DNA from: Alphaproteobacteria bacterium
GTDB lineage: Bacteria; Pseudomonadota; Alphaproteobacteria; Thalassobaculales; Thalassobaculaceae
Length of the DNA: 64,000 nucleotides
Reading direction: 5' to 3'
NCBI GenBank assembly: GCA_024742275.1
Contig: JANSYS010000008.1
Location: 1 to 64,000 of the forward strand
Shown here: positions 52,188 through 64,000 of the stretch, piece by piece
How positions within the stretch are numbered: the first letter of the stretch is position 1
Layout: each line of letters opens with the position of its first letter
The notes under the pieces: generated by a model
The model's input: only the letters and a program-made list of their open reading frames with translations
The model's database searches: none
Told to the model about the DNA's origin: nothing
Program-made: the position numbers and the translations under genes

Positions 52188-53147
52188 TCAGAGCTCCGAG
52201 AGATACCGAGCGTTGTCGGGCGCCAACTCCCGTACCCGTGAACGCGCCTGCTCGGCAAGATCTGCCTCGCCGGATTTATCGTGTACCTTCGCCAACGCGA
52301 AATGGCCGTCGATGCTCTGCGGGTCGACTTCGACGGATCGGCTGGCCGCCCTGCGGGCTTCGTCCAGATCGCCTTGTTCGGCCTTGAGCCAGGCAAGCCC
52401 GCCGAGCAGCGCAGGGTCGTCCGGATTTGCGGCCAGAGCCGTCTCGAACTCGCTAACCGCTTCGCCCACCTTGCCAAGCTGGCCCAGGCAACTCGCCAGC
52501 TTACCGCGGAAAGCGGCGACCGAAGGAGCGCGTTGCACGGCCGCTCGGAAGCAATCCTCAGCCTGCTCCAACTCGCCCAAATCGGCAAAAGACTCGCCAA
52601 GCTGGTACAAGCCGTTCGTGTTATCCGGATTGGCTTCGACTGCCCGCACAAGGAAGCTTACGGCATCGGCGCCTTCGCCGACTTCACGTCCGACGATACC
52701 GCGCCAAACCAGCACTTCGGAAGCCGTCGGGTCGGCCTTTATTGCCCGGTCAAGCGTCGCGGCAGCACCTGGCAGATCGTCCATACCCCGTTGCACGAGC
52801 GCTTTGTTGAACAATGCCTCGACATAGTTCGGATCCATTTCGAGTGCCCTATTGAACCACCGGTCGGCGCTCGGCAGATCTCCCAGTCTCAGCTCTGCGG
52901 TCCCGATATGATTCGGATAGGCAGGGTTTTCGGGATCGATCTCGGCTGCTGCGGCAAAGAGCGCCTTCGCCCCTTCGCTTTCGCCACATTGGAGGCATAG
53001 CAAGCCTGCCAGATGAAGCGCCCGCTCATGCTGCGGATCCGTTTCCAGGATTTCGAGGTAGAGGTCGCGCGCCTGTTCGATCTCGCCGGCCTCGTGATGA
53101 CGGACAGCGGCAACGAGCTTCGGTTGCAGGTCTTCGGCAGCGGTCAT
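52188..53147 (-). CDS. TPR repeat protein of the flagellin block
   Basis: The protein has 319 residues and consists almost wholly of TPR motifs (around eight 34-residue units, e.g. DPNYVEALFNKALVQRGM and DDPALLGGLAWLKAEQGDLD). No signal peptide and no glycosyltransferase domain are visible, unlike the three long TPR proteins at the right end. It is the last gene in a flgK-flgL-FlaG-like-TPR run. A binding or chaperone role for filament components is possible from context. Confidence 0.75.
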   Translation of the reverse strand: MTAAEDLQPKLVAAVRHHEAGEIEQARDLYLEILETDPQHERALHLAGLLCLQCGESEGAKALFAAAAEIDPENPAYPNHIGTAELRLGDLPSADRWFNRALEMDPNYVEALFNKALVQRGMDDLPGAAATLDRAIKADPTASEVLVWRGIVGREVGEGADAVSFLVRAVEANPDNTNGLYQLGESFADLGELEQAEDCFRAAVQRAPSVAAFRGKLASCLGQLGKVGEAVSEFETALAANPDDPALLGGLAWLKAEQGDLDEARRAASRSVEVDPQSIDGHFALAKVHDKSGEADLAEQARSRVRELAPDNARYLSEL

Positions 53148-53972: not shown

Positions 53973-54959
53973 TCAGATAAATCTCGTCAAACTCAGATTC
54001 CGCAATACGGCGGTGGTCTGAAACGAAGCCTCAAGCTGCGCTTGAAGGGTCTGGAACTCGCTCACCGCCTCGTATGGGTCGACATCCTCGATATTGCCGA
54101 TCTGCGTTTCCAGTAGAAGTATCGACTCCTTGTGGGCACTGGAACGGCTCTCCATCTCGGCGCCGACGACGCCGTTCTGACCGACCATATCGTTCATGAG
54201 GTCGAGCGCCGCCTCCACCTTTCCGAGGCCCCAGTTCACGAGGTTGCGGTATTGCGCGTCGTCGCCGGCGGTGAACGTGGTGTTGGAGAATGCGTAGAGC
54301 ACGTCGAAGATCTCTTCGAACGTCGCGCTGTCGTTCGCCAACTCGCCGTAGTCGAGATCCACACCCTCGTCGACCCGAACGGTCAGAGAGCCAGGGGCCG
54401 GCGTCGTCACGTTGGTCCAGTTGGCGTCAACATCGAAAAACGCCTCGGCCGCAGCGATGATACCGGCGGATCCGCCCGCGAGGGCCGGTTGGGCATAGGC
54501 GCCCTGGGTCGTTGCCGGGTCGATGATCGGCTGTGTATTTGTATCCGTCCCATTGAACAGGTATTTGCCGTCGACCGTCTGATTCAGAAGGTTGGAGAAC
54601 TGGTTGATCGCGGCCGTCGCATAGGTGGACAGAGCCAGGGACGACTGCTCGAACAAACCTTCAACCTGCTGGTAGAGTTGTTTACGCAACTCTTCCGCGA
54701 CGCCCGTCATTTGCTGAAGCGTCGCGTCGATCGTTTCCGTTTTCACTTTCGTATTGTTGATGGAATTTATATAGGATTCCATCGACGTGCGCTGTTCTTT
54801 CAACGTGATCAGCAGCCGCGTATCCTGTCCTTGGAAGCCGCTGTAGACTTGGCTGCGCTTTCCGGTCGAAATCTGCTGCTGCGCGTCCGCCAGGCGCCGC
54901 TGGATCGATGTGATCGAACTATCGATCCGAAGGTTCTGACTCAGGGTCGAGATACGCAT
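53973..54959 (-). CDS. flgL: Flagellar hook-filament junction protein FlgL
   Basis: The protein has 328 residues. It has flagellin-like N- and C-terminal helices: MRISTLSQNLRIDSSITSIQ and ISTGKRSQVYSGFQG at the start, YEAVSEFQTLQAQLEASFQT and NLSLTRFI at the end. A TVDGKYLFNGTDTNT segment is FlgL/HAP3-like. It joins FlgK to the filament. It starts 20 bases after flgK. Confidence 0.9.
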   Translation of the reverse strand: MRISTLSQNLRIDSSITSIQRRLADAQQQISTGKRSQVYSGFQGQDTRLLITLKEQRTSMESYINSINNTKVKTETIDATLQQMTGVAEELRKQLYQQVEGLFEQSSLALSTYATAAINQFSNLLNQTVDGKYLFNGTDTNTQPIIDPATTQGAYAQPALAGGSAGIIAAAEAFFDVDANWTNVTTPAPGSLTVRVDEGVDLDYGELANDSATFEEIFDVLYAFSNTTFTAGDDAQYRNLVNWGLGKVEAALDLMNDMVGQNGVVGAEMESRSSAHKESILLLETQIGNIEDVDPYEAVSEFQTLQAQLEASFQTTAVLRNLSLTRFI

Positions 54960-54979: not shown

Positions 54980-56413
54980 CTATCGGATCACGGCCAGGAG
55001 CTCATCGAGTGCATCCTGCACCGTCGTAAGCACCCGGGCGGAAGCGGTGAACGCGCTTTCCAACTGAATCAAGCTGGCAAGTTCTTCGTCGACATTGACT
55101 CCGCTCTCGTCCCGCAGCCGTTCCTGCAGAAGATTGCGAACCTGATCCTGAAATCCGAGCTGGCTCTCGTAGTCGGCTTTCTGATTGGCCTGATAGGACA
55201 CGAGCTCGGCAGCGAAGTTCTCGAGCGTCGCCGTACCGTTCAAGCCCGTGACCGCGACGAAGGTCTGCGCCGTATCGAACATGTCGATGATCGCAAGCGG
55301 CAGCGCGCTGTCGCTGACGCCACTGGCGGCAAAGGTACCACCGTTCCCGTCTCGCAGAATGCTGGGTGTCGCCGTGACGGTTGGGTTGACCCGGATCTGG
55401 GCCGAAAAACCTTGATCGCCGGCCGGAACCACGTTCGTCGCGTCGACGAACAGATCGATGTTGGCCGCGTTGGCGCCGACCGTGATGGTGTCGAATTGCT
55501 GAGCCAGCTCGAACGCAAGTGAATCGAGCTGATCCTGGGCAAGCGGCAGAATGGTATCGCGCAACTCCAACAGTCCGCCGATCTTGCCGCTGTTCAAGTC
55601 GGCATTGATGGCGAACGGAGCGTTGAAACCATTGTCGAGAAAGACGCTGTTCAGCGCCGTGTCTGGGCCGACGGTGTTGGTCGGCGTGAACGTCAGGGTC
55701 ACGGCCGTCTGGTCGAGCAGGAAGTCGCTGCCCCCGGTCAGCACGGCGATCGTGCCGTCGTCCCGGCGGAACGTCTTGATATCCATCTCCTCGGAGAGCT
55801 TGCCGACCCACATATCGCGCTCATCCTCGAGATCGGCCGTCGACGCACCGACAACACTGCGGGCGCCGATTTCACCGTTAAGCTTCTCGATGTTTTCGAG
55901 CGCCGCGTTGATGTTGCTGACCGACTCTTCGATCCGCACATCCGCCTCCGCACGCAACGTCTGGATGGCGCCGGACAGGCTCTGAAAGGCTTCGGCGACG
56001 GCGGTCGCCTGACGAAGAACGTCGCTCTGAGCCGTCGCCGAGTCCGGGTTCGTTGCCAAGACCTGAAACGACCTCTTCAGGTCGGTAATCTTTGCCGATA
56101 TCGATACGTTGTCTTCCGGGCGGCCGAACTCAAGCTCTAGGCGCCCCAGGAAGTCGTCGATCACCGTGAGGGACTCCACGGTGGACGTCTGGTTGCGGAC
56201 GTCGATCTGAAGTTGCGCGTTCACCTCGCGGGTGACAGCCTCAAGACGAACGGTGCTGCTTTGACCGTCGACGATCCGAGTGGTCTGGTTCTGGGTCTTC
56301 TTCGTGTACCCGTCGACGTTCGCATTCGTGATGTTACGAGACGCGACGTCAATCCCCGCCTGGGCTGCGGCAAGACCGCTGGTGGCAGTGTTGAGAGCTG
56401 AAAGGAGACTCAT
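54980..56413 (-). CDS. flgK: Flagellar hook-associated protein FlgK
   Basis: The protein has 477 residues. SLLSALNTATSGLAAAQAGI then DVASRNITNANVDGYTKK is the FlgK N-terminus, and the C-terminal ESGVNVDEELASLIQLESAF with ARVLTTVQDALDELL is a HAP1 signature. It forms the first hook-filament junction. A sigma-54 site is placed 34 bases upstream. Confidence 0.95.
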   Translation of the reverse strand: MSLLSALNTATSGLAAAQAGIDVASRNITNANVDGYTKKTQNQTTRIVDGQSSTVRLEAVTREVNAQLQIDVRNQTSTVESLTVIDDFLGRLELEFGRPEDNVSISAKITDLKRSFQVLATNPDSATAQSDVLRQATAVAEAFQSLSGAIQTLRAEADVRIEESVSNINAALENIEKLNGEIGARSVVGASTADLEDERDMWVGKLSEEMDIKTFRRDDGTIAVLTGGSDFLLDQTAVTLTFTPTNTVGPDTALNSVFLDNGFNAPFAINADLNSGKIGGLLELRDTILPLAQDQLDSLAFELAQQFDTITVGANAANIDLFVDATNVVPAGDQGFSAQIRVNPTVTATPSILRDGNGGTFAASGVSDSALPLAIIDMFDTAQTFVAVTGLNGTATLENFAAELVSYQANQKADYESQLGFQDQVRNLLQERLRDESGVNVDEELASLIQLESAFTASARVLTTVQDALDELLAVIR

Positions 56414-56486: not shown

Positions 56487-56864
56487 TCATCCGACCAAGG
56501 ACTGCGGTTCAGGCTTCAAGCCCGCCATGATCTGGCGGTTGATCTCGATCAGGTCGTCCAGCGGCGCGTCATCGTCGGACATCACAAGCTTGGTTTCCTT
56601 GATGACCCAGAGCGCAAGGCTTGCAATTCCGCCTTTCAGCGCACGCGGGAGGGCATTCTCGGGATCGTTGACGTCGGCCAGAAACACGCCCCAGACCTTC
56701 TCGTTCTGGAGGATCCAGTTGTATTTCTCCTGGATCGAAGCTCGCCCGTCGCGCGCCTTCATCAGACCGCCCGTCACCTGTGCCAAAAGGCGGTATTCGA
56801 GGTCACGACCGTTCTGGGTCGCGACGGCGCCCTGGGTATTCTTGTAAGCACCGTATCCCTGCAT
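56487..56864 (-). CDS. flaF: Flagellar biosynthesis regulator FlaF, copy 1
   Basis: The protein has 125 residues. It begins QGYGAYKNTQGAVATQNGRD and has LEYRLLAQVTGGLMKARD, then WVIKETKLVMSDDDAPLDDLIEINRQIMAGL, a FlaF pattern (core LLAQVTGGLMKA, LIEINRQIMAGL). In Caulobacter FlaF acts with FlbT on flagellin translation and secretion. It follows the flagellin gene by 87 bases. A second FlaF is at 61917-62372. Confidence 0.92.
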   Translation of the reverse strand: MQGYGAYKNTQGAVATQNGRDLEYRLLAQVTGGLMKARDGRASIQEKYNWILQNEKVWGVFLADVNDPENALPRALKGGIASLALWVIKETKLVMSDDDAPLDDLIEINRQIMAGLKPEPQSLVG

Positions 56865-56951: not shown

Positions 56952-57779
56952 TTACTGGAACAGGCCGAGCAGGATCTGCGGCGCCTGGTTGGCGATGCCG
57001 AGAACCTGGACACCGAGCTGCTGACGAACCTGAAGCGCGGTCAACCGTGCGCTTTCGCGTGCCATATCGGCGTCGACGATGTTTCCGAGACCTTCTTCCG
57101 TGGCATCCGTGATCTGGTCCAGGAAAGACGTCTGCAGGTCGAGCGCGCGGGCTTCCGCTCCGAGCGACCCCAGGGCCGCGTTCACCACGGACTCGAGGTT
57201 CGAATACTGGTTGGCGATGACCTGCTGCGCCGATGTGGCCGACCCCAGGCTAACGGCGGCCAACGAGAAGGTCTGCGTCCGCAGATCCTGGTTGGTCAGG
57301 GTCAACGTGCCGCCCGCGAGATTCGAGAGCGTATTGATGCTGGGCGCCGCTGCGGCCGTATCCAGCAGGTTGACGCCGTTGAAGACGGCGTTGTCGATGA
57401 AGTTCGAGGCCTGGGACAGCAGTTCCGCGAAGTCGTTTGTCAGGATCTGCCGCTGCGTGGTCGTGATACCTTCGTTCGACAGCTCAGTGAGCTTCTGCCG
57501 CACTGTCTGCAGCAGGTCGGAGATACTGGTCGCGCCGGCGATCGCGACGTTGGCGATACCCTTCGAGTTGTTCAGCCCCTGGCTGATGGCGCCGAGCGCC
57601 TTGATGTCCCCTCGGATACCCTGGGCGATCGCGAAGTTCGACGCGTCATCGATAGCGCCGGTAACCTTGAGACCCGTGGAAACTCGGTTCTGAGTCGTGG
57701 CAAGAAGGCTGTTGGTCCGCTCGAGGTTGCGAAGAGCGACAAGAGCCTCGGGGTTCGTCAGGATTGAGTTGCTAGCCAT
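56952..57779 (-). CDS. Flagellin
   Basis: The protein has 275 residues, with D0/D1 domains only and no variable central domain. SNSILTNPEALVALRNLERT and NRVSTGLKVTGAIDDASNFA are alphaproteobacterial N-terminal motifs; the C-terminal ARESARLTALQVRQQLGVQV then LGIANQAPQILLGLF is typical. No Cys is present. Ser/Thr-rich surface stretches could be glycosylated. A sigma-54 promoter lies ~100 bases upstream, leaving a leader of roughly 85 bases where FlbT-type control could act. This is the only flagellin in the window. Confidence 0.96.
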   Translation of the reverse strand: MASNSILTNPEALVALRNLERTNSLLATTQNRVSTGLKVTGAIDDASNFAIAQGIRGDIKALGAISQGLNNSKGIANVAIAGATSISDLLQTVRQKLTELSNEGITTTQRQILTNDFAELLSQASNFIDNAVFNGVNLLDTAAAAPSINTLSNLAGGTLTLTNQDLRTQTFSLAAVSLGSATSAQQVIANQYSNLESVVNAALGSLGAEARALDLQTSFLDQITDATEEGLGNIVDADMARESARLTALQVRQQLGVQVLGIANQAPQILLGLFQ

Positions 57780-58016: not shown

Positions 58017-59945
58017 TCAGGACGGTCGGCGGCAGGCCGCAGGGCCCTCCTGGAGCAGAACCACGGCCCGTGCGATGGCGACCGCGACGTCCATCGGTTC
58101 GTTCCGACGCATGGTCGGCGTCAGATCGGCGAAGAACAGGTCGTGATCGTCGAGGATGCTGTAGAAAGATGGCGCGAGCCTGATCGTCGAGCAGCCGACG
58201 GCGGCGGCCAGCACGCAGACGCTGGTTGCGGTCGACACCACCAGGTCCAACGCCGATATCAACGCGGCCACCCCATCCAGATCCTCTCGCTGATCCAGTT
58301 CCGTGGGACGCCAGATATCGATTCCGTAGCTCCGCCGGAACTCTTCGAGCTCTTGCCTGCAATCATCGTATTGCAGGCAAACGAAGCGGAATCCAGAAAG
58401 GCGGAGCAAGGGCAGGAGCTGCTCAAGCGCGGCATAGTAGGCTGAACGGACACTCCCTTTCAGCATGCTGCGCCAACAGATACCTACAAGAGGTCCCTCT
58501 CCGTCTATCTTCTCAAGCCGCAAGCGCCAGCAATCAACCGCCGAACGGTCCGCTTTCAGATATCCCCCCCGAGCCGGGCGATGGCTCCGATCGCGTCGAT
58601 AACGTCCCGGCAGGTCGCCCGCATGGACATGTGCTTTCAGTCCCAGGGCCGAAACAATCTTCGTGTAGTCGTAGATCGAGCTGGCGCCGTCGAGCTGGAT
58701 TTGTCGGTCGACTAGGCTAAGCCCTGGAAATGACCGGGCAAGGAGCGGGTGCAGCCGCGCATCGGCCTCCACCACCGGCTCAGGACAGTCCCTCAACAGG
58801 TCCGGAAGACAGGACAAGAACAATAGCTCGTCGCCGATCCCCTGCTCCGCAGCCACGAGCAGACCATCGGTTGGAGACTCCGTTCTCAAGAGCCGCGGCG
58901 GCAATCCGCGGGTGCGATGAAAGCGCGGACCGCTTGTGCGCCCGGAATCCAGGTCCCAACCTCTGCCCAGATCACCCGCCGCCTTCTCGGCCTGGGCCAG
59001 AAGGTAGACGAGTTCCCCGTCCTTTGGATGAGCGGTAAGGCCGGTCGCCGAGACCCGGCCTGCAAGCCCAAAGCGCGCCAATTGTAGAGCCGCCTGAGCG
59101 AAAGCTCTCGCGCATCCGCGGTCACCCGGAGATGCCAACAGGCCGCACCGGGCTGCTGAAAGGCTGGCAGCTGCATGACCCCGGCCCCGCTCGGCTCTTG
59201 CCAACACATCCCATGCCGGTGCCGAAACAGGGTTGAGCACCAGAGCGCGCCGGGCCCATAGCCATGCTGGCGCCATACCCTCGGGCCGCCCACCGCCTTC
59301 GCCAAGCAGGGCGACAACCTCGCGGGAGCCAGGGTTTGCCACCGCCGCGGCACATGCTCTGCTCCACGCTTGCTCACGCCAGGCGACGCGCCGGGCGGAG
59401 GTCACGGCCGCAACCGCCAACGCCGGAACGGTGGGAAGCAAGCGTGAGGCGGAAAGGGACGCGATGGCCGCCATCTCCGGCCGCCCCATCCTGGCGGCTA
59501 TCCCCGCGAGGCGAACCTGAAAAGACGGATCGGCCGGCGACGCGGTTGCAGCCCACCAAGCCAGGGGATAGGCGCCTCGAACTTTTCCGGTTCGGGCGAG
59601 GTCTTCGGCAACCAAGGACCCAGCCCCCCGAGCGCCCGCTGGATCGACGACCACAGCGCGTCGCAAGAATGCCATCGCTCTCGTTCTGTCGCCGAGCTGG
59701 GCCAAGGCCATCCCGCAGTGTTCCTGAACGCGGGCCAGAAGCGGATCAGAACACAGGGCTCTGCGGCACCATCGCGCCTGATTCAACAGGTCTCCGGCGA
59801 TGACCGTCGGGATGACTCTGCAATCGTCAGGCGCGGCGCAAACGGCGAAACGAAAGCATCGCTCAGCGATGACCGTCCGTCCCGCACGCTGCTCGGCGAT
59901 GCCGCGCCGAAGCGCGACGGCGGCCGCCGGCTCCAGCTGCTCCAT
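58017..59945 (-). CDS. TPR-glycosyltransferase-like protein A (FlmG-like)
   Basis: The protein has 642 residues. About 340 residues of degenerate TPR-like helices are followed by a GT-B-like catalytic half. The junction motif AAEQGIGDELLF (EQG at 367) matches the EQGxGDxxxF motif of bacterial TPR-glycosyltransferases. Further on are GPLVGICWRS and LDLVVSTATSVCVLAAAVG, the latter at the place of the nucleotide-sugar-binding DTSVAHLAGA segment. In Caulobacter, FlmG has this TPR plus GT layout and modifies flagellins. It lies 2 bases downstream of the next similar gene. Activity is inferred. Confidence 0.75.
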   Translation of the reverse strand: MEQLEPAAAVALRRGIAEQRAGRTVIAERCFRFAVCAAPDDCRVIPTVIAGDLLNQARWCRRALCSDPLLARVQEHCGMALAQLGDRTRAMAFLRRAVVVDPAGARGAGSLVAEDLARTGKVRGAYPLAWWAATASPADPSFQVRLAGIAARMGRPEMAAIASLSASRLLPTVPALAVAAVTSARRVAWREQAWSRACAAAVANPGSREVVALLGEGGGRPEGMAPAWLWARRALVLNPVSAPAWDVLARAERGRGHAAASLSAARCGLLASPGDRGCARAFAQAALQLARFGLAGRVSATGLTAHPKDGELVYLLAQAEKAAGDLGRGWDLDSGRTSGPRFHRTRGLPPRLLRTESPTDGLLVAAEQGIGDELLFLSCLPDLLRDCPEPVVEADARLHPLLARSFPGLSLVDRQIQLDGASSIYDYTKIVSALGLKAHVHAGDLPGRYRRDRSHRPARGGYLKADRSAVDCWRLRLEKIDGEGPLVGICWRSMLKGSVRSAYYAALEQLLPLLRLSGFRFVCLQYDDCRQELEEFRRSYGIDIWRPTELDQREDLDGVAALISALDLVVSTATSVCVLAAAVGCSTIRLAPSFYSILDDHDLFFADLTPTMRRNEPMDVAVAIARAVVLLQEGPAACRRPS

Positions 59946-59947
59946 CG

Positions 59948-61903
59948 TCAGCCTCGCGCCGCGGTCAGCAGTTCACCGAGCTTCGCCGCAGCCCTACGGC
60001 CCGCCTCCGGGCCATCGAAAGCCTCATCCCGGTCGAAGACAGGGTAGACATTGGGAAAGAAGAAATCGCGCTCGTTGGATATATAGAGGAACGCCTGGGC
60101 CAACCGCACCGTCGGCGTGCCGACGGCGCCGGCAAAGGCGCAGTTGGCTGTTCGTGCCGCGACGACCACGTCCAGCGCCTGCATCAACGCGGTCAGTCCC
60201 TCCAGGTCATCCCAAATGTCCAAGTCAGGCGGGGATACGATGTCGATCCCCGTTTCCCGCTTCACCAATGCCAGGTCCTCGGCGTTGTTGCCGACCATCA
60301 AGTTGATGAACTTGCACCCGGGCGTGGCGAAGATCGGAAGCAGATCCTCCATTGTGCAGTGGATGCGTGCGCGGAACTTGGTCCACTGCGCCGTGCGCCA
60401 GACAACACCGATCTTGGATCCATCGCCTAGATCCGAAAGCCACTTGCGCCAACGCGCAACGCGCCCGGGATCGGTTTTCAGATACCCAACCTGCTGCAAG
60501 GGGCGGGCGCGGTCGCTGCCAAGCAGGCGCGGTAGACTGCCTGAGAAAACGAAGTGGCGGATGCCATACGTGGCGATAGCTTCTCGATAGTCAAAGAACT
60601 GTCCGAGGCCGTCACCGGCCACAAACTGCCGTGGGATGACCGTTGCTTGCGGAAACGTTCGGGCGACCAGAGTCACTAGACGCTTGTCCACTTCGACGAC
60701 CAGCGGCTGGCTGATCCGGTCGACCACCTCCGTCAGGCAGGACAGGAAAGTGATCTCGTCCCCTACACCTTGTTCGGAAGCTATTAGAATAGGTCCGACC
60801 TCCGTTCCAGGGCCCAACCAGGGTTCCGGCAGGTTCAATCGAGGTCGATGAACGTCGCGCCGGATCCTGGCTTCATGCAGCCCCCAGGCGGTCTTCGCGT
60901 CGCCGACGCGGAACTCAAGCTCGGCCATAGTATACATCGCGTCCGGGTTTCCCGGCGCCAAGATCAGGACCCGGCGGGACAGATCGCGGCTCTCGACGAG
61001 CCGGTGCAGATTGATCGCGGCCGCCGCCAGATTCTGCAAGCCCATGTGCGACCCCGGATCGAGCAACAACGACCGGCGCGCCGCTTCGTATGCGTCCGAA
61101 ATCCGACCATCGCGATAGGTCTCGGCGCAGAGGTTCAGCCAGCCACGGGCGTCAAGAGGCCGCAGACATACCGCGGCCTTGGCCCAGGCGATATCGCGAT
61201 CGGTCGACCATCGTGCATCGTGAGATGTGGCCAGCGAGGCGTAGAGTTCATAGGCTTGAGGGGCCAACGCGATCGCCGCCATAACCACGCGCCGTGCTCT
61301 GTCCAAATGACCGAGGTCCACGTTGGCCCTAGCCAGATTCAAGGCGACCTCGGAATTGCCGGGGCTACGGCGCCAGGCGATCTTTAGAAAAGGAATCGCA
61401 TCCTCCGCCCTGCCGGCACGTCGCAGCAGTACCCCTTGACGCAGAACAGCGTCCGGCGAGTCCGGCATGACCAGGAATGCCCGACGGTTCAAGGCCAGTC
61501 CGGCATCCGTCTCGTCTCTATCGCCGAATATCGCCGCCAGATTGACCATGGCTTCGGCCTTGCCCGGCTCCAGAAGAACCGCGCGCCGGAACGACTGCGC
61601 CGCCAACGGATCGTTCTTCAGGCCCCGGTCGATGGCGCCGAGATGGTTCCATGCCGGTCCGTGTAGCGGTCGATGCTGGAGCGAAGCGGTCACATAGGGT
61701 CTGCCGGCTTGCGGCGCACCCAACTGAAACAAGGCCGTCCCGTACAGATCTAGGACATCCGCGTGGGCGGGAAGATATTTGAGAAGCTCTTCGTAGGCCT
61801 GCGCCGCGACGAGAACGTTGCCGGCAGCATGGGCCTCGACAGCATGATGGAATAGAGAAACGAGCTCCGCCTTCCGATCGGCGGAAATGGTTCGCCCGGT
61901 CAT
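59948..61903 (-). CDS. TPR-glycosyltransferase-like protein B (FlmG-like)
   Basis: The protein has 651 residues. Residues 1-340 contain clear TPR units (AAQAYEELLKYLPAHADVLD, LAAQSFRRAVLLEPGKAEAM). The GT part has ASEQGVGDEITFLSC at about 375-389, KIGVVWRTAQWTKFRARIHC near 497 and LDVVVAARTANCAFAGAVG near 577. No membrane segment or signal peptide is visible, so it should act in the cytoplasm, as FlmG does. It is located 13 bases after the second flaF, in a flbT-flaF-B-A operon, which ties it to flagellin production. Sugar donor and acceptor are unknown. Confidence 0.75.
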   Translation of the reverse strand: MTGRTISADRKAELVSLFHHAVEAHAAGNVLVAAQAYEELLKYLPAHADVLDLYGTALFQLGAPQAGRPYVTASLQHRPLHGPAWNHLGAIDRGLKNDPLAAQSFRRAVLLEPGKAEAMVNLAAIFGDRDETDAGLALNRRAFLVMPDSPDAVLRQGVLLRRAGRAEDAIPFLKIAWRRSPGNSEVALNLARANVDLGHLDRARRVVMAAIALAPQAYELYASLATSHDARWSTDRDIAWAKAAVCLRPLDARGWLNLCAETYRDGRISDAYEAARRSLLLDPGSHMGLQNLAAAAINLHRLVESRDLSRRVLILAPGNPDAMYTMAELEFRVGDAKTAWGLHEARIRRDVHRPRLNLPEPWLGPGTEVGPILIASEQGVGDEITFLSCLTEVVDRISQPLVVEVDKRLVTLVARTFPQATVIPRQFVAGDGLGQFFDYREAIATYGIRHFVFSGSLPRLLGSDRARPLQQVGYLKTDPGRVARWRKWLSDLGDGSKIGVVWRTAQWTKFRARIHCTMEDLLPIFATPGCKFINLMVGNNAEDLALVKRETGIDIVSPPDLDIWDDLEGLTALMQALDVVVAARTANCAFAGAVGTPTVRLAQAFLYISNERDFFFPNVYPVFDRDEAFDGPEAGRRAAAKLGELLTAARG

Positions 61904-61916
61904 CGACCGGATCCGA

Positions 61917-62372
61917 TCAGAACGAGTCGAGTGAAGCCGACAGGCCGGGATTCGGAGCAGCAGAAACCTGGTTGCCCGACGCTTGTTCGTCCTGATCGGC
62001 CCGGCCCGGATTTAGGCCACGCATGATGGCTTTGTTCACGGAGATCAGGGCTTCGATATCGCCCTCACCCGACTGCACGAGCCCGGTCTCTCGCGATACC
62101 CAAATTCCGAGACTTACGATGGCCGCACGTAGTTCACGCGGCAGCATGTTTCCCTCGGTGCCGACGTCCTCGACGAACGTATCCCAAACCTGATTGTTCC
62201 AGTTCAGCGCATCCATGACCTCAGCCATCACAGTCGGCTTGCCACGCGACTCGCCGATCTGCTCCTGTGCCTTGATCAACGCCGCTGTAACCTGCCCGAG
62301 CAGACGATACTCAACGTCGCGCGGCGTCGCGGTGCTCTTGATCGTTCGATTGTAGGCATCGTAGCTGGACAT
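61917..62372 (-). CDS. flaF: Flagellar biosynthesis regulator FlaF, copy 2
   Basis: The protein has 151 residues from the ATG at 62372. SYDAYNRTIKSTATPRDVEY and RLLGQVTAALIKAQEQIGES align with FlaF copy 1 (shared EYRLL-QVT-L-KA), and AALISVNKAIMRGLNPGR-like sequence (ISVNKAIMRGLNPG) matches its end. It has an extra 25-residue Gln/Ser/Asn-rich C-terminal tail. It follows flbT by 18 bases. Confidence 0.88.
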   Translation of the reverse strand: MSSYDAYNRTIKSTATPRDVEYRLLGQVTAALIKAQEQIGESRGKPTVMAEVMDALNWNNQVWDTFVEDVGTEGNMLPRELRAAIVSLGIWVSRETGLVQSGEGDIEALISVNKAIMRGLNPGRADQDEQASGNQVSAAPNPGLSASLDSF

Positions 62373-62390
62373 TCGGACTTCACCGTCCAA

Positions 62391-62828
62391 TCAGGGCGTT
62401 TCCAGAGCGATACTTGGCTTCTCGGCCGTCTCACCGCGACCGAACGCAAGCACCTGCTCTTCATAAGCGATTAATGCTTTACAAGTCTTTAATGCCCTGT
62501 AGTAGCGCGCTGCGTTGACATCCTGAACGATGTGCAACAGCGTCCGCCGCACCTCGTTGAAAGTCGTAGCCTCCATGAATTCCTCGATCAGTCTCATGAA
62601 GGTCGGGTAGTAGTCCTTGCGTCCTTCATCATCGAGGTACATCAGGAGGATAGAGAAATAGATACGCTTAGCGGGCGTATCCGCCTCCGTCTCCTGCATG
62701 ATGTCCTTGCCCAGCAGGATCGTCGCCTCATTCTGCAACACGAGCGACGCACCCTTGTTGCCGGCGACCATGACGGCGCCGTTGACGACGAATTTCTCTC
62801 CAGGCTTGATGTTGACCTTTAGCGGCAT
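62391..62828 (-). CDS. flbT: Flagellin translation regulator FlbT
   Basis: The protein has 145 residues. MPLKVNIKPGEKFVVNGAVM, the RIYFSILLMYLDDEGRKDYY segment and VRRTLLHIVQDVNAARYYRA match FlbT. In Caulobacter FlbT binds the flagellin mRNA leader and limits its translation until the hook is finished. It is first in flbT-flaF-TPR/GT-TPR/GT. The upstream spacer of 176 bases is shared with the divergent TPR gene. Confidence 0.94.
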   Translation of the reverse strand: MPLKVNIKPGEKFVVNGAVMVAGNKGASLVLQNEATILLGKDIMQETEADTPAKRIYFSILLMYLDDEGRKDYYPTFMRLIEEFMEATTFNEVRRTLLHIVQDVNAARYYRALKTCKALIAYEEQVLAFGRGETAEKPSIALETP

Positions 62829-63004
62829 GTGGTAAATGTCGCATTCATTTTCCGACTGTCAAGCGAAGCTGGGCTAACACGAATGATTTGTCGGTGGCAT
62901 CGAAGCGCCCATGCGGGTTTCCGCTCTCGCATGTTCATGCCCGGAACGGCGGGTTCGGAACGGCGGGATGCACTTCTCGTTCATCCGATTCGCTTGTTCT
63001 GAGT

Positions 63005-64000
63005 ATGCCTGACCTGCTGTCCGACGCGTTGAATGCCGGCTTGCGCGCTCACAGAGCGGGCCAAATCGAACAGGCGCTGGCGACGTACGATGCCGTGCTG
63101 GCGATCGAACCAAACCATGGGACGGCGCGTCACTTACGTGGTTTCGCACTACTGCAACTCGGCAGCCTCGAAAAGGCCGCGCTCGACTTACGGGCAGCAG
63201 TGCGCCTGACCCCGTCCAACGCGAACGCATGGGGTCATCTAGCCGTTTGTCTTTCCCGGATGGACGAGAGCGCCATATCCACGGCCCGCCGGGCCCTGTT
63301 GCTGAACCCCGCATCCGCAGAACCTCTGGATGTCATCTGCCGCGCGCCAGAGGCAGGCCCGAAAAGTGTCTCTCAGCTCCTTCAGATATCTCCGGGAGAG
63401 CCTACAGTCTGGAGCAGGGCTGGAGTGAATCTAGCCCGGTCCGATCCGGACGCGGCCCGACGGGCTCTTCAGCGATGCTTGATGCTCGCACCCGGCGAAG
63501 CCCCGTCCCTGCTCGACTTAGCCGATCTGGAGCGCCAACGCAAAGCGCCCGCCACCGCTCACAGGCTGGCGTCATGGAGCTTGATCCTGCGGCCGATGGA
63601 ACCGCGGTCGCTCGCCGAACGGGCAGCGGCATCGGTTGAGTTGGATGCTATCGACGACGCGCTGGCGGAGACGGCGATGGCCCTTGTGCGCGACCCGGCA
63701 CACGTGAGGGCATGGGGGAATCGCGGCGAAGCCTTCTATAGACTGGCGGACTACGAGGCGGCCAAGGACTGCGGAAAGCGCGCGCTCATGCTCGCGGGAA
63801 ACGATCCGGACGTCCGCGCCAACCTGGGCGCCTATAGACTTGCAGCCGGCGATCTTTCTGCCGGTTGGCGCCTCTTCCGCAACCGGCCCGCCCGCCGACA
63901 AATACGGCGCGCGGATCTGCCTAGATGGACAGGCGAATCCGGCGTCCGCCTCTTGGTGCTGGCGGAACAGGGCCTGGGCGACGAGTTGCTGTTCTCGTCT
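63005..64000 (+). CDS. TPR-glycosyltransferase-like protein C (FlmG-like), partial
   Basis: The frame is open from the ATG at 63005 to the window end: 332 codons, truncated by the window edge. TPR-like helices fill residues 1-300 (ALATYDAVLAIEPNHGTARH, ANAWGHLAVCLSRMDESAIS). The last residues read LLVLAEQGLGDELLFSS (EQG at 321), the same EQGxGDE junction as proteins A and B, so a GT half should follow outside the window. It diverges from flbT. No clear ribosome binding site is visible. Confidence 0.78.
   Translation, partial: MPDLLSDALNAGLRAHRAGQIEQALATYDAVLAIEPNHGTARHLRGFALLQLGSLEKAALDLRAAVRLTPSNANAWGHLAVCLSRMDESAISTARRALLLNPASAEPLDVICRAPEAGPKSVSQLLQISPGEPTVWSRAGVNLARSDPDAARRALQRCLMLAPGEAPSLLDLADLERQRKAPATAHRLASWSLILRPMEPRSLAERAAASVELDAIDDALAETAMALVRDPAHVRAWGNRGEAFYRLADYEAAKDCGKRALMLAGNDPDVRANLGAYRLAAGDLSAGWRLFRNRPARRQIRRADLPRWTGESGVRLLVLAEQGLGDELLFSS

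Follow-up and report, generated by a model that had tools for sequence, protein, structure and literature searches.

Four FlmG-like tetratricopeptide repeat glycosyltransferase paralogues at the flagellin locus of a Thalassobaculaceae bacterium

The analysed stretch (the window) comprises the first 64,000 bases of the 181,978-base contig JANSYS010000008.1 from assembly GCA_024742275.1, a 97.9% complete alphaproteobacterial genome of the Thalassobaculaceae that is congeneric with Thalassobaculum litoreum. Its right end carries a flagellar cluster in which flagellin, flbT and flaF genes are accompanied by genes that join an N-terminal tetratricopeptide repeat (TPR) domain to a C-terminal domain (CTD) resembling glycosyltransferases (GTs). 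Read over the whole contig, the locus holds four such TPR-GT genes (A, B, C and D) and three flagellins; the original prediction had counted three copies for one flagellin, which is a window artefact, because D and two of the flagellins lie just past position 64000. The central genes are as follows.

58017..59945, minus strand: gene A, 642 amino acids (aa), TPR-like repeats and a predicted GT9-like GT-B domain, CTD from about residue 329
59948..61903, minus strand: gene B, 651 aa, TPR and a predicted GT9-like GT-B domain, CTD from about residue 339, LQY changed to LMV
62888 (TTG start) or 63005 (ATG start) to 64771, plus strand: gene C, TPR and a glycosyltransferase half, 627 aa from the TTG
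contig 71805-73382, minus strand: gene D, 525 aa, flanked by flgE and fliF, roughly 9 kb away from flbT
62391..62828, minus strand: flbT, flagellin regulator family (Pfam PF07378, E 4e-40)
61917..62390, minus strand: flaF-1, flagellin chaperone family (Pfam PF07309, E 5.3e-28)
56952..57779, minus strand: flagellin-1 (Pfam PF00669/PF00700)
contig 64900-65730, minus strand: flagellin-2, past the window
contig 66040-66870, minus strand: flagellin-3
56487..56864, minus strand: flaF-2 (Pfam PF07309, E 5e-27), downstream of flagellin-1

The genes flaF-1, B and A lie on one strand with gaps of 13 bases (flaF-1/B) and 2 bases (B/A), in agreement with the operon with flbT and flaF that had been proposed for A and B, and C is divergent from flbT as described, which is the place of flmG in Caulobacter. 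Gene C is interrupted by the window end at 64000 and is complete on the contig. The three TPR proteins first noticed were all recovered with the coordinates and junction motifs reported for them (EQGIGDE in A, EQGVGDE in B, EQGLGDE in C), and A and B are 31% identical over 580 aa (E 3e-67), far above chance. The whole genome contains 11 TPR-GT matches, seven of them more distant and outside the flagellar locus.

TPR matches are clear by Pfam in B and C and were obtained for D as well, while the repeats of A are nearly invisible to Pfam (best E 0.01, below the cut-off). No Pfam GT model scored above its cut-off for A to D: against PF01075 (Glyco_transf_9, cut-off 22) C reached 15.6 bits and A 12.1, and the CTDs of B and D gave no match. 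The NCBIfam matches of A to D were to TPR-type models only, all below cut-offs, and a profile search with the CTD against PDB sequences returned 0 hits. AlphaFold models of A and B, built from 24-row alignments, are confident, with pLDDT values of 89.5 and 91.5, respectively; in both, helical repeats fill the first 338-348 residues (residues 6 to 338 in A) and are followed by an alpha/beta half. By VIA-align, residues 355-638 of model A superpose on the GT9 structure 3tov with Z 17.1 (266 aligned residues, 3.7 Å), followed by WaaF 1psw (Z 16.0), WaaC 2h1h (Z 15.4) and TibC (Z 14.7), and residues 365-649 of model B superpose on 3tov with Z 18.2 (269 aligned, 3.7 Å). The best structural matches of both domains taken alone are GT9 enzymes, and GT41, still a possible affiliation, was matched by Foldseek and VIA-align solely over whole chains, at high root-mean-square deviation (rmsd). 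The original prediction, which named the absence of a GT-B fold as grounds for dropping it, had seen a GT-B-like half in the complete copies A and B, and structure prediction gave that fold for both; the profile comparison with GT9 that it proposed left every copy below the PF01075 cut-off, and the GT9 likeness of A and B is one of structure. C and D align in sequence with the modelled A and B through the CTD.

FlmG of Caulobacter crescentus (CCNA_01524) is 596 aa long (PMC7591256). Identity to the protein that occupies the flmG position in Caulobacter sp. D5 is 30% over 455 aa for C (E 6e-41), 28% for D (2e-46), 27% for B (2e-34) and 31% for A (6e-34). Rows called FlmG here were named by synteny and length (divergent from flbT-flaF-flagellins, plus near relatives), and the Caulobacter rows, such as those of sp. 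D5 (597 aa) and C. hibisci, are distinct from the tested C. crescentus NA1000 protein. Among 78 homologue loci, representing the best 80 of 123 homologues, 15 have one TPR-GT divergent from flbT, including those of Caulobacter and Kordiimonas. The substrate of A to D is read from such context, and of the seven TPR-GT matches outside the flagellar locus two adjoin an RTX-like repeat protein and CDP-sugar genes, which would suit enzymes that merely sit in the flagellar cluster and act on non-flagellar targets; the linkage to flagellin, flaF and flbT recurs in many genera, however, as it does for the tested FlmG, and we regard such a coincidence as very improbable.

A first tree of 109 GT domains of at least 240 aa from chosen loci (the smaller pieces of genome G026 and the remnant of G030 were left out) recovered clades of D (13 rows, 100/100), C (8 rows, 100/99) and A/B (21 rows, 100/99), with A (5 rows) and B (7 rows) as sisters within the last (98/91). 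Also separate were copies adjacent to flgK (9 rows, 100/97) and the main PseI-linked group (20 rows, 100/100), and the FlmG rows formed two groups joined at 80/81. Later trees used 60 of the 109 rows (LG+G4) and 66 rows with Asticcacaulis divided by module and two of the three Azospirillum replicons included, Eilatimonas being dropped from all of these as a long branch. In these trees a supported branch (98/97 in 60 rows, 97/95 in 66 rows) splits the TPR-GT clades in two, with A/B, C, the flgK-adjacent copies and one small PseI-linked clade on one side and FlmG, D and the main PseI-linked clade on the other. The idea that C is FlmG came from gene position, before any tree; the grouping of C with FlmG was rejected (p-AU 0.0131, 60 rows, LG+G4, tested after the first tree had been seen), which rules out calling C the FlmG orthologue from position alone. 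Groupings of FlmG with the PseI-linked rows (p-AU 0.417) and with A/B (0.0976, not recovered) were not rejected, and the best tree places D with FlmG at a support of only 65/34. One branch (95/94) separates the FlmG rows from all Thalassobaculaceae rows, and a radiation inside the family is therefore possible. The FlmG likeness proposed for this locus thus holds for architecture, homology to the Caulobacter sp. D5 protein and linkage to flagellin, and fails for C as a member of the FlmG group. From their sequences A to D are best called FlmG-like paralogues, rather than demonstrated FlmG orthologues, and they likely work in a FlmG-like way. Among the papers listed in literature searches on FlmG, TPR flagellin glycosyltransferases, Thalassobaculum flagella and Azospirillum flagellin glycans we recognised none on multiple FlmG paralogues, and absence from print is not claimed.

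A reference set of 57 rows (FlmG, PseI-linked, D and C) gave 22 CTD columns conserved to at least 90%, of which 20 are retained in A, 15 in B, 21 in C, 22 in D and 21 in the Caulobacter sp. D5 protein. The scores of C and D are partly circular, since both contributed rows to the reference. Across the Azospirillum modules 312 of 330 conserved cells are retained. In all seven B orthologues the near-invariant Q412-Y413 pair (D numbering) is gone, LQY being replaced by L-M and then, in most cases, V, A or P, and Y391 (changed to H), P493 and W509 are lost as well. P493 and W509 are gone in all five A orthologues too, and the loss of W509 weighs little because 15 of 15 Azospirillum modules also lack it. 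R387 is gone in the flgK-adjacent copies (9/9) and in a second PseI-locus clade (5/5). The stretch where DTSVAHL is expected is atypical in A and B, as had been pointed out. In the Caulobacter sp. D5 protein, however, DTS is likewise missing from this stretch, which has N534 instead, so that a missing DTSVAHL does not mark a copy as odd or dead.

C and D are predicted to be catalytic, and A is probably so. For B we take the corresponding part of the C-terminal half of WaaC to hold the nucleotide sugar, which makes a changed donor site a fair guess; the alternative is a non-catalytic protein. B, and perhaps the flgK-adjacent copies, would in that case be pseudo-glycosyltransferases that act as flagellin-binding adaptors or regulators, as the loss of Q412, Y413 and Y391 in every B orthologue and of R387 in every flgK-adjacent copy might suggest, with B nonetheless kept in frame at a ratio of nonsynonymous to synonymous divergence (dN/dS) of 0.14-0.26 in three genomes. 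We consider this somewhat unlikely: B retains every column that is invariant in an alignment of 24 sequences (EQGxGDE and the single residues R, P, G, W, R, A and D), the loss of the Q-Y pair could mean another donor, and R387 and the C-terminal Trp have been lost in the second PseI-locus clade and in Azospirillum, respectively, with no reason to call those copies dead.

Rates were compared over four genomes of the genus, or three in the case of B. Identities are 95-98% for flagellin-1 (dN 0.01-0.04), 79-88% for D, 58-71% for A, 62-72% for B and 53-64% for C. With dN/dS at 0.10-0.31 over the A-D pairs, values that are rough because dS is high (0.7-1.9), none of the four genes looks to be decaying in the congeners. 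Between the host and its congeners the TPR half is 49-55% identical in A and 48-56% in C, and the GT half 65-70% and 58-66%, respectively; the TPR half of both diverges faster than the GT half, though the presumed partner flagellin hardly changes. Selection by phages that target the surface glycan might be one reason for this fast change.

CTD matches (E ≤ 1e-5) were found in at least 36 of the 61 genomes searched, and gene order was read in 20 of the 36 family genomes, at loci of the flagellar cluster or of TPR-GTs, with D lying beyond the stretch read in several. Placement beside flagellins, flbT and flaF is kept in the family loci read. A and B are both present in the host, a Thalassobaculaceae metagenome-assembled genome (MAG; G003), G004 and T. 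fulvum KCTC 42651, and in MAG M30B52 (G026) both are present and broken by frame shifts. T. fulvum carries C and D as well. In T. litoreum DSM 18839, A, C, D and a PseI-linked copy are present, B is reduced to a 141-aa remnant, and three flagellins are kept. Strain BAL199 and G009 lack A but carry B, both are missing from G010, and G030 has only a 91-aa B-like remnant, again with three flagellins. Four genomes (G006, G017, G025 and G033) carry D, one A/B-type copy and, in place of C, a flgK-adjacent copy. Flagellin-1 is retained in all these cases in the loci read.

These losses bear on whether each paralogue is dedicated to one flagellin, to the hook or to hook-associated proteins. Related clades do lie near different structural genes (C by fla2/fla3, D by flgE/fliF, another by flgK), and in Caulobacter the N-terminal domain of FlmG confers substrate specificity (PMC7591256). 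FlmG is, however, tied to modification of all six Caulobacter flagellins (PMC7591256), G030 and T. litoreum keep three flagellins each beside mere remnants of B, and flagellin-1 persists in BAL199 without A and in G010 without A and B. Strict pairing of enzyme and flagellin is disfavoured because relatives that lack A, B or both keep flagellin-1, and dedicated copies of this kind appear unlikely; the suggestion that the copies act on different filament proteins, taken as one enzyme per flagellin, loses ground accordingly.

Side observations on the family genomes are as follows. In the M30B52 flagellar cluster (G026:C3, L062) several genes are frame-shifted, which may be assembly error. G001 and G005, of the same genus and each a one-contig genome of 1.5 Mb and 99% completeness, gave no FlbT, NeuB or TPR-GT domain match and are reduced genomes beside 5-Mb relatives.

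No NeuB family member above the cut-off was found in the host assembly, where the only weak match is a frame that we read as like DAHP synthase. Full-strength NeuB is present in 20 of 21 FlbT-bearing family genomes, the host being the sole exception, and a TPR-GT adjoins NeuB in 15 of the 15 loci fetched. The T. litoreum NeuB is PseI by an equivalog model (488 bits, cut-off 340); pseI is followed after one base by the start of a TPR-GT gene on the same strand, and the locus has PseG and PseH matches below cut-offs and a pseudaminic-acid methylase above its cut-off. The host genome has adjacent PseC and PseB genes above cut-off on another contig (C59:156178-158457). The surroundings of pseI, some 41 kb in all, form a block common to G004 and T. 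litoreum (about 85-95% DNA identity, small gaps) and had no counterpart of that quality in the host assembly, where longer matches were 65-69% identical and closer ones very short, in searches that scored the best 40 of 471, 245 and 398 candidates. The missing block is either an assembly gap or a loss, and we lean to a gap because pseB and pseC are retained; these two genes and the missing block also weaken the idea, suggested by the absence of NeuB, that the lineage works without nonulosonic acid. To the original remark that no linked pseudaminic-acid pathway is in view it can be added that the host genome has pseB and pseC on another contig and that in T. litoreum the pseI cluster adjoins another TPR-GT. 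A check for Maf with PF01973 (listed as MptE-like), within which we take Maf to fall, gave 0 matches in the host genome, a negative of undemonstrated sensitivity for bacterial Maf, as the control genomes with matches were archaea. A gene some 4 kb away from pseC-pseB (L186:396-4070, minus strand, C59) encodes a 1,224-aa protein that is kept in T. litoreum and begins with what we read as a sulfotransferase-like or P-loop domain.

We consider it probable that A to D are paralogous cytoplasmic FlmG-type flagellin O-glycosyltransferases that share the flagellins rather than serving one each. From the architecture, the predicted fold of A and B, the conservation, the gene order and the copy losses observed here we infer a substrate, a donor and a division of labour. 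The N-terminal TPR half, by analogy with FlmG, would hold newly made flagellin, and the GT9-like GT-B half would transfer sugars from nucleotide donors to Ser/Thr, before FlaF-aided export. Most likely the four enzymes have their flagellin substrates in common, and what sets them apart is the donor, the acceptor site or the step; pseudaminic acid is probably among the donors. Enzymes of this type have been described in Caulobacter, and what is new is the multi-copy set, including one copy with lost conserved residues.

Several points weigh against this interpretation. NeuB is missing from the host assembly, it also occurs in 9 of the 15 genomes of the family that gave no FlbT match (most of these incomplete), which makes its link to the flagellar locus loose, and the TPR-GT beside pseI in the congeners belongs to a clade other than A-D, leaving the user of pseudaminic acid ambiguous. 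The dN/dS values and the conservation scores of C and D carry the roughness and partial circularity given above, and some copies may act on the hook or caps, as the position of D by flgE/fliF and of a related copy by flgK elsewhere would allow.

The remaining named genes of the cluster, all read from sequence, are:

53973-54959, minus strand: flgL
54980-56413, minus strand: flgK
contig, between flagellin-3 and D, plus strand: fliK, flgD and flgE
contig, after D, plus strand: fliF

At the flgL end of the cluster (52188-53147, minus strand) lies a gene for a 319-aa pure TPR protein without a GT domain, and in G003 a B-similar frame of equal length occupies the same place (L046:3939-4898). Two flaF paralogues, one behind flagellin-1 and one behind flbT, recur in most family loci read and are perhaps flagellin-specific chaperones. 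Elsewhere in the host genome (G000:C34, L083:2846-13696) two further TPR-GTs of 915 and 583 aa adjoin an RTX-like calcium-repeat protein, whose repeat matches are below the models' cut-offs, and genes for glucose-1-phosphate cytidylyltransferase and CDP-glucose 4,6-dehydratase; this may be another locus for protein glycosylation, one that draws on a CDP-sugar.

Multiplied TPR-GT modules were also found outside the family. Three Azospirillum replicons (L192, L193 and L194, plasmids of A. brasilense MTCC4039, Azospirillum sp. B510 and A. lipoferum 4B) were chosen because B- and D-like matches clustered there, strain Sp7 not being among them. In each, a three-module GT protein of 2,002-2,021 aa is encoded directly after a flagellin-like gene and flbT, and a two-module protein of 1,190-1,229 aa lies opposite. 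In Asticcacaulis the place of flmG is taken by a two-module protein. In the 66-row tree the Azospirillum modules (two replicons) form their own clade and the two Asticcacaulis modules are sisters, from which it follows that TPR-GT multiplication occurred several times.

The Azospirillum fusions raise the tentative possibility of an assembly line, in which A to D would in turn build an oligosaccharide on flagellin as the fused modules may do. The polar flagellin of A. brasilense bears an O-linked repeating glycan of rhamnose, fucose, galactose and N-acetylglucosamine (PMC3958885, PMC8100600), and three- and two-module proteins stand at the flagellin-like gene and flbT in every replicon read. 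That glycan resembles the bacterium's own lipopolysaccharide O-antigen (PMC3958885) and may be made elsewhere; nothing found in the sources consulted ties the multi-module genes to it, and since the Azospirillum modules are their own clade the link to A-D is by analogy. A multi-sugar glycan line with labour divided among the paralogues, degenerate B as a non-catalytic, flagellin-holding partner in the flbT-flaF operon and the same solution reached separately in the Azospirillum three- and two-module megaenzymes would combine these ideas, and we think it quite unlikely in full.

How O-glycosylation systems select their target protein is poorly understood (PMC7591256). Four FlmG-like paralogues beside a near-constant flagellin, with natural losses of single copies, make it testable which half sets the donor and which the acceptor. 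The single FlmG of Caulobacter becomes one end of a range that reaches five GT modules at one Azospirillum flagellin locus.

Like A to D, FlmG of C. crescentus has an N-terminal TPR domain and a C-terminal GT-B domain, and C occupies the place of the Caulobacter sp. D5 and C. hibisci homologues, divergent from flbT-flaF-flagellins. Caulobacter has one copy, however, against four here, C falls outside the FlmG clade and the place of D beside FlmG is poorly supported, B lacks the LQY motif, and pseI was not found in the host assembly. The O-GlcNAc transferase (OGT)/SPINDLY enzymes (GT41) share with A and B a TPR superhelix joined to a GT-B domain and are the top Foldseek rows for the whole chain of A, whereas whole chains superpose poorly (rmsd 10-21 Å for SPINDLY and full-length OGT, 16.1 Å for 7yeh). 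The GT9 heptosyltransferases (WaaC, WaaF and 3tov) and TibC share the fold of the C-terminal half, 3tov with A and B and the other three with A, but A to D exceed no Pfam GT9 cut-off and carry a TPR domain. The Azospirillum multi-module proteins likewise place several GT modules at a flagellin locus, in their case fused into two proteins and duplicated independently.

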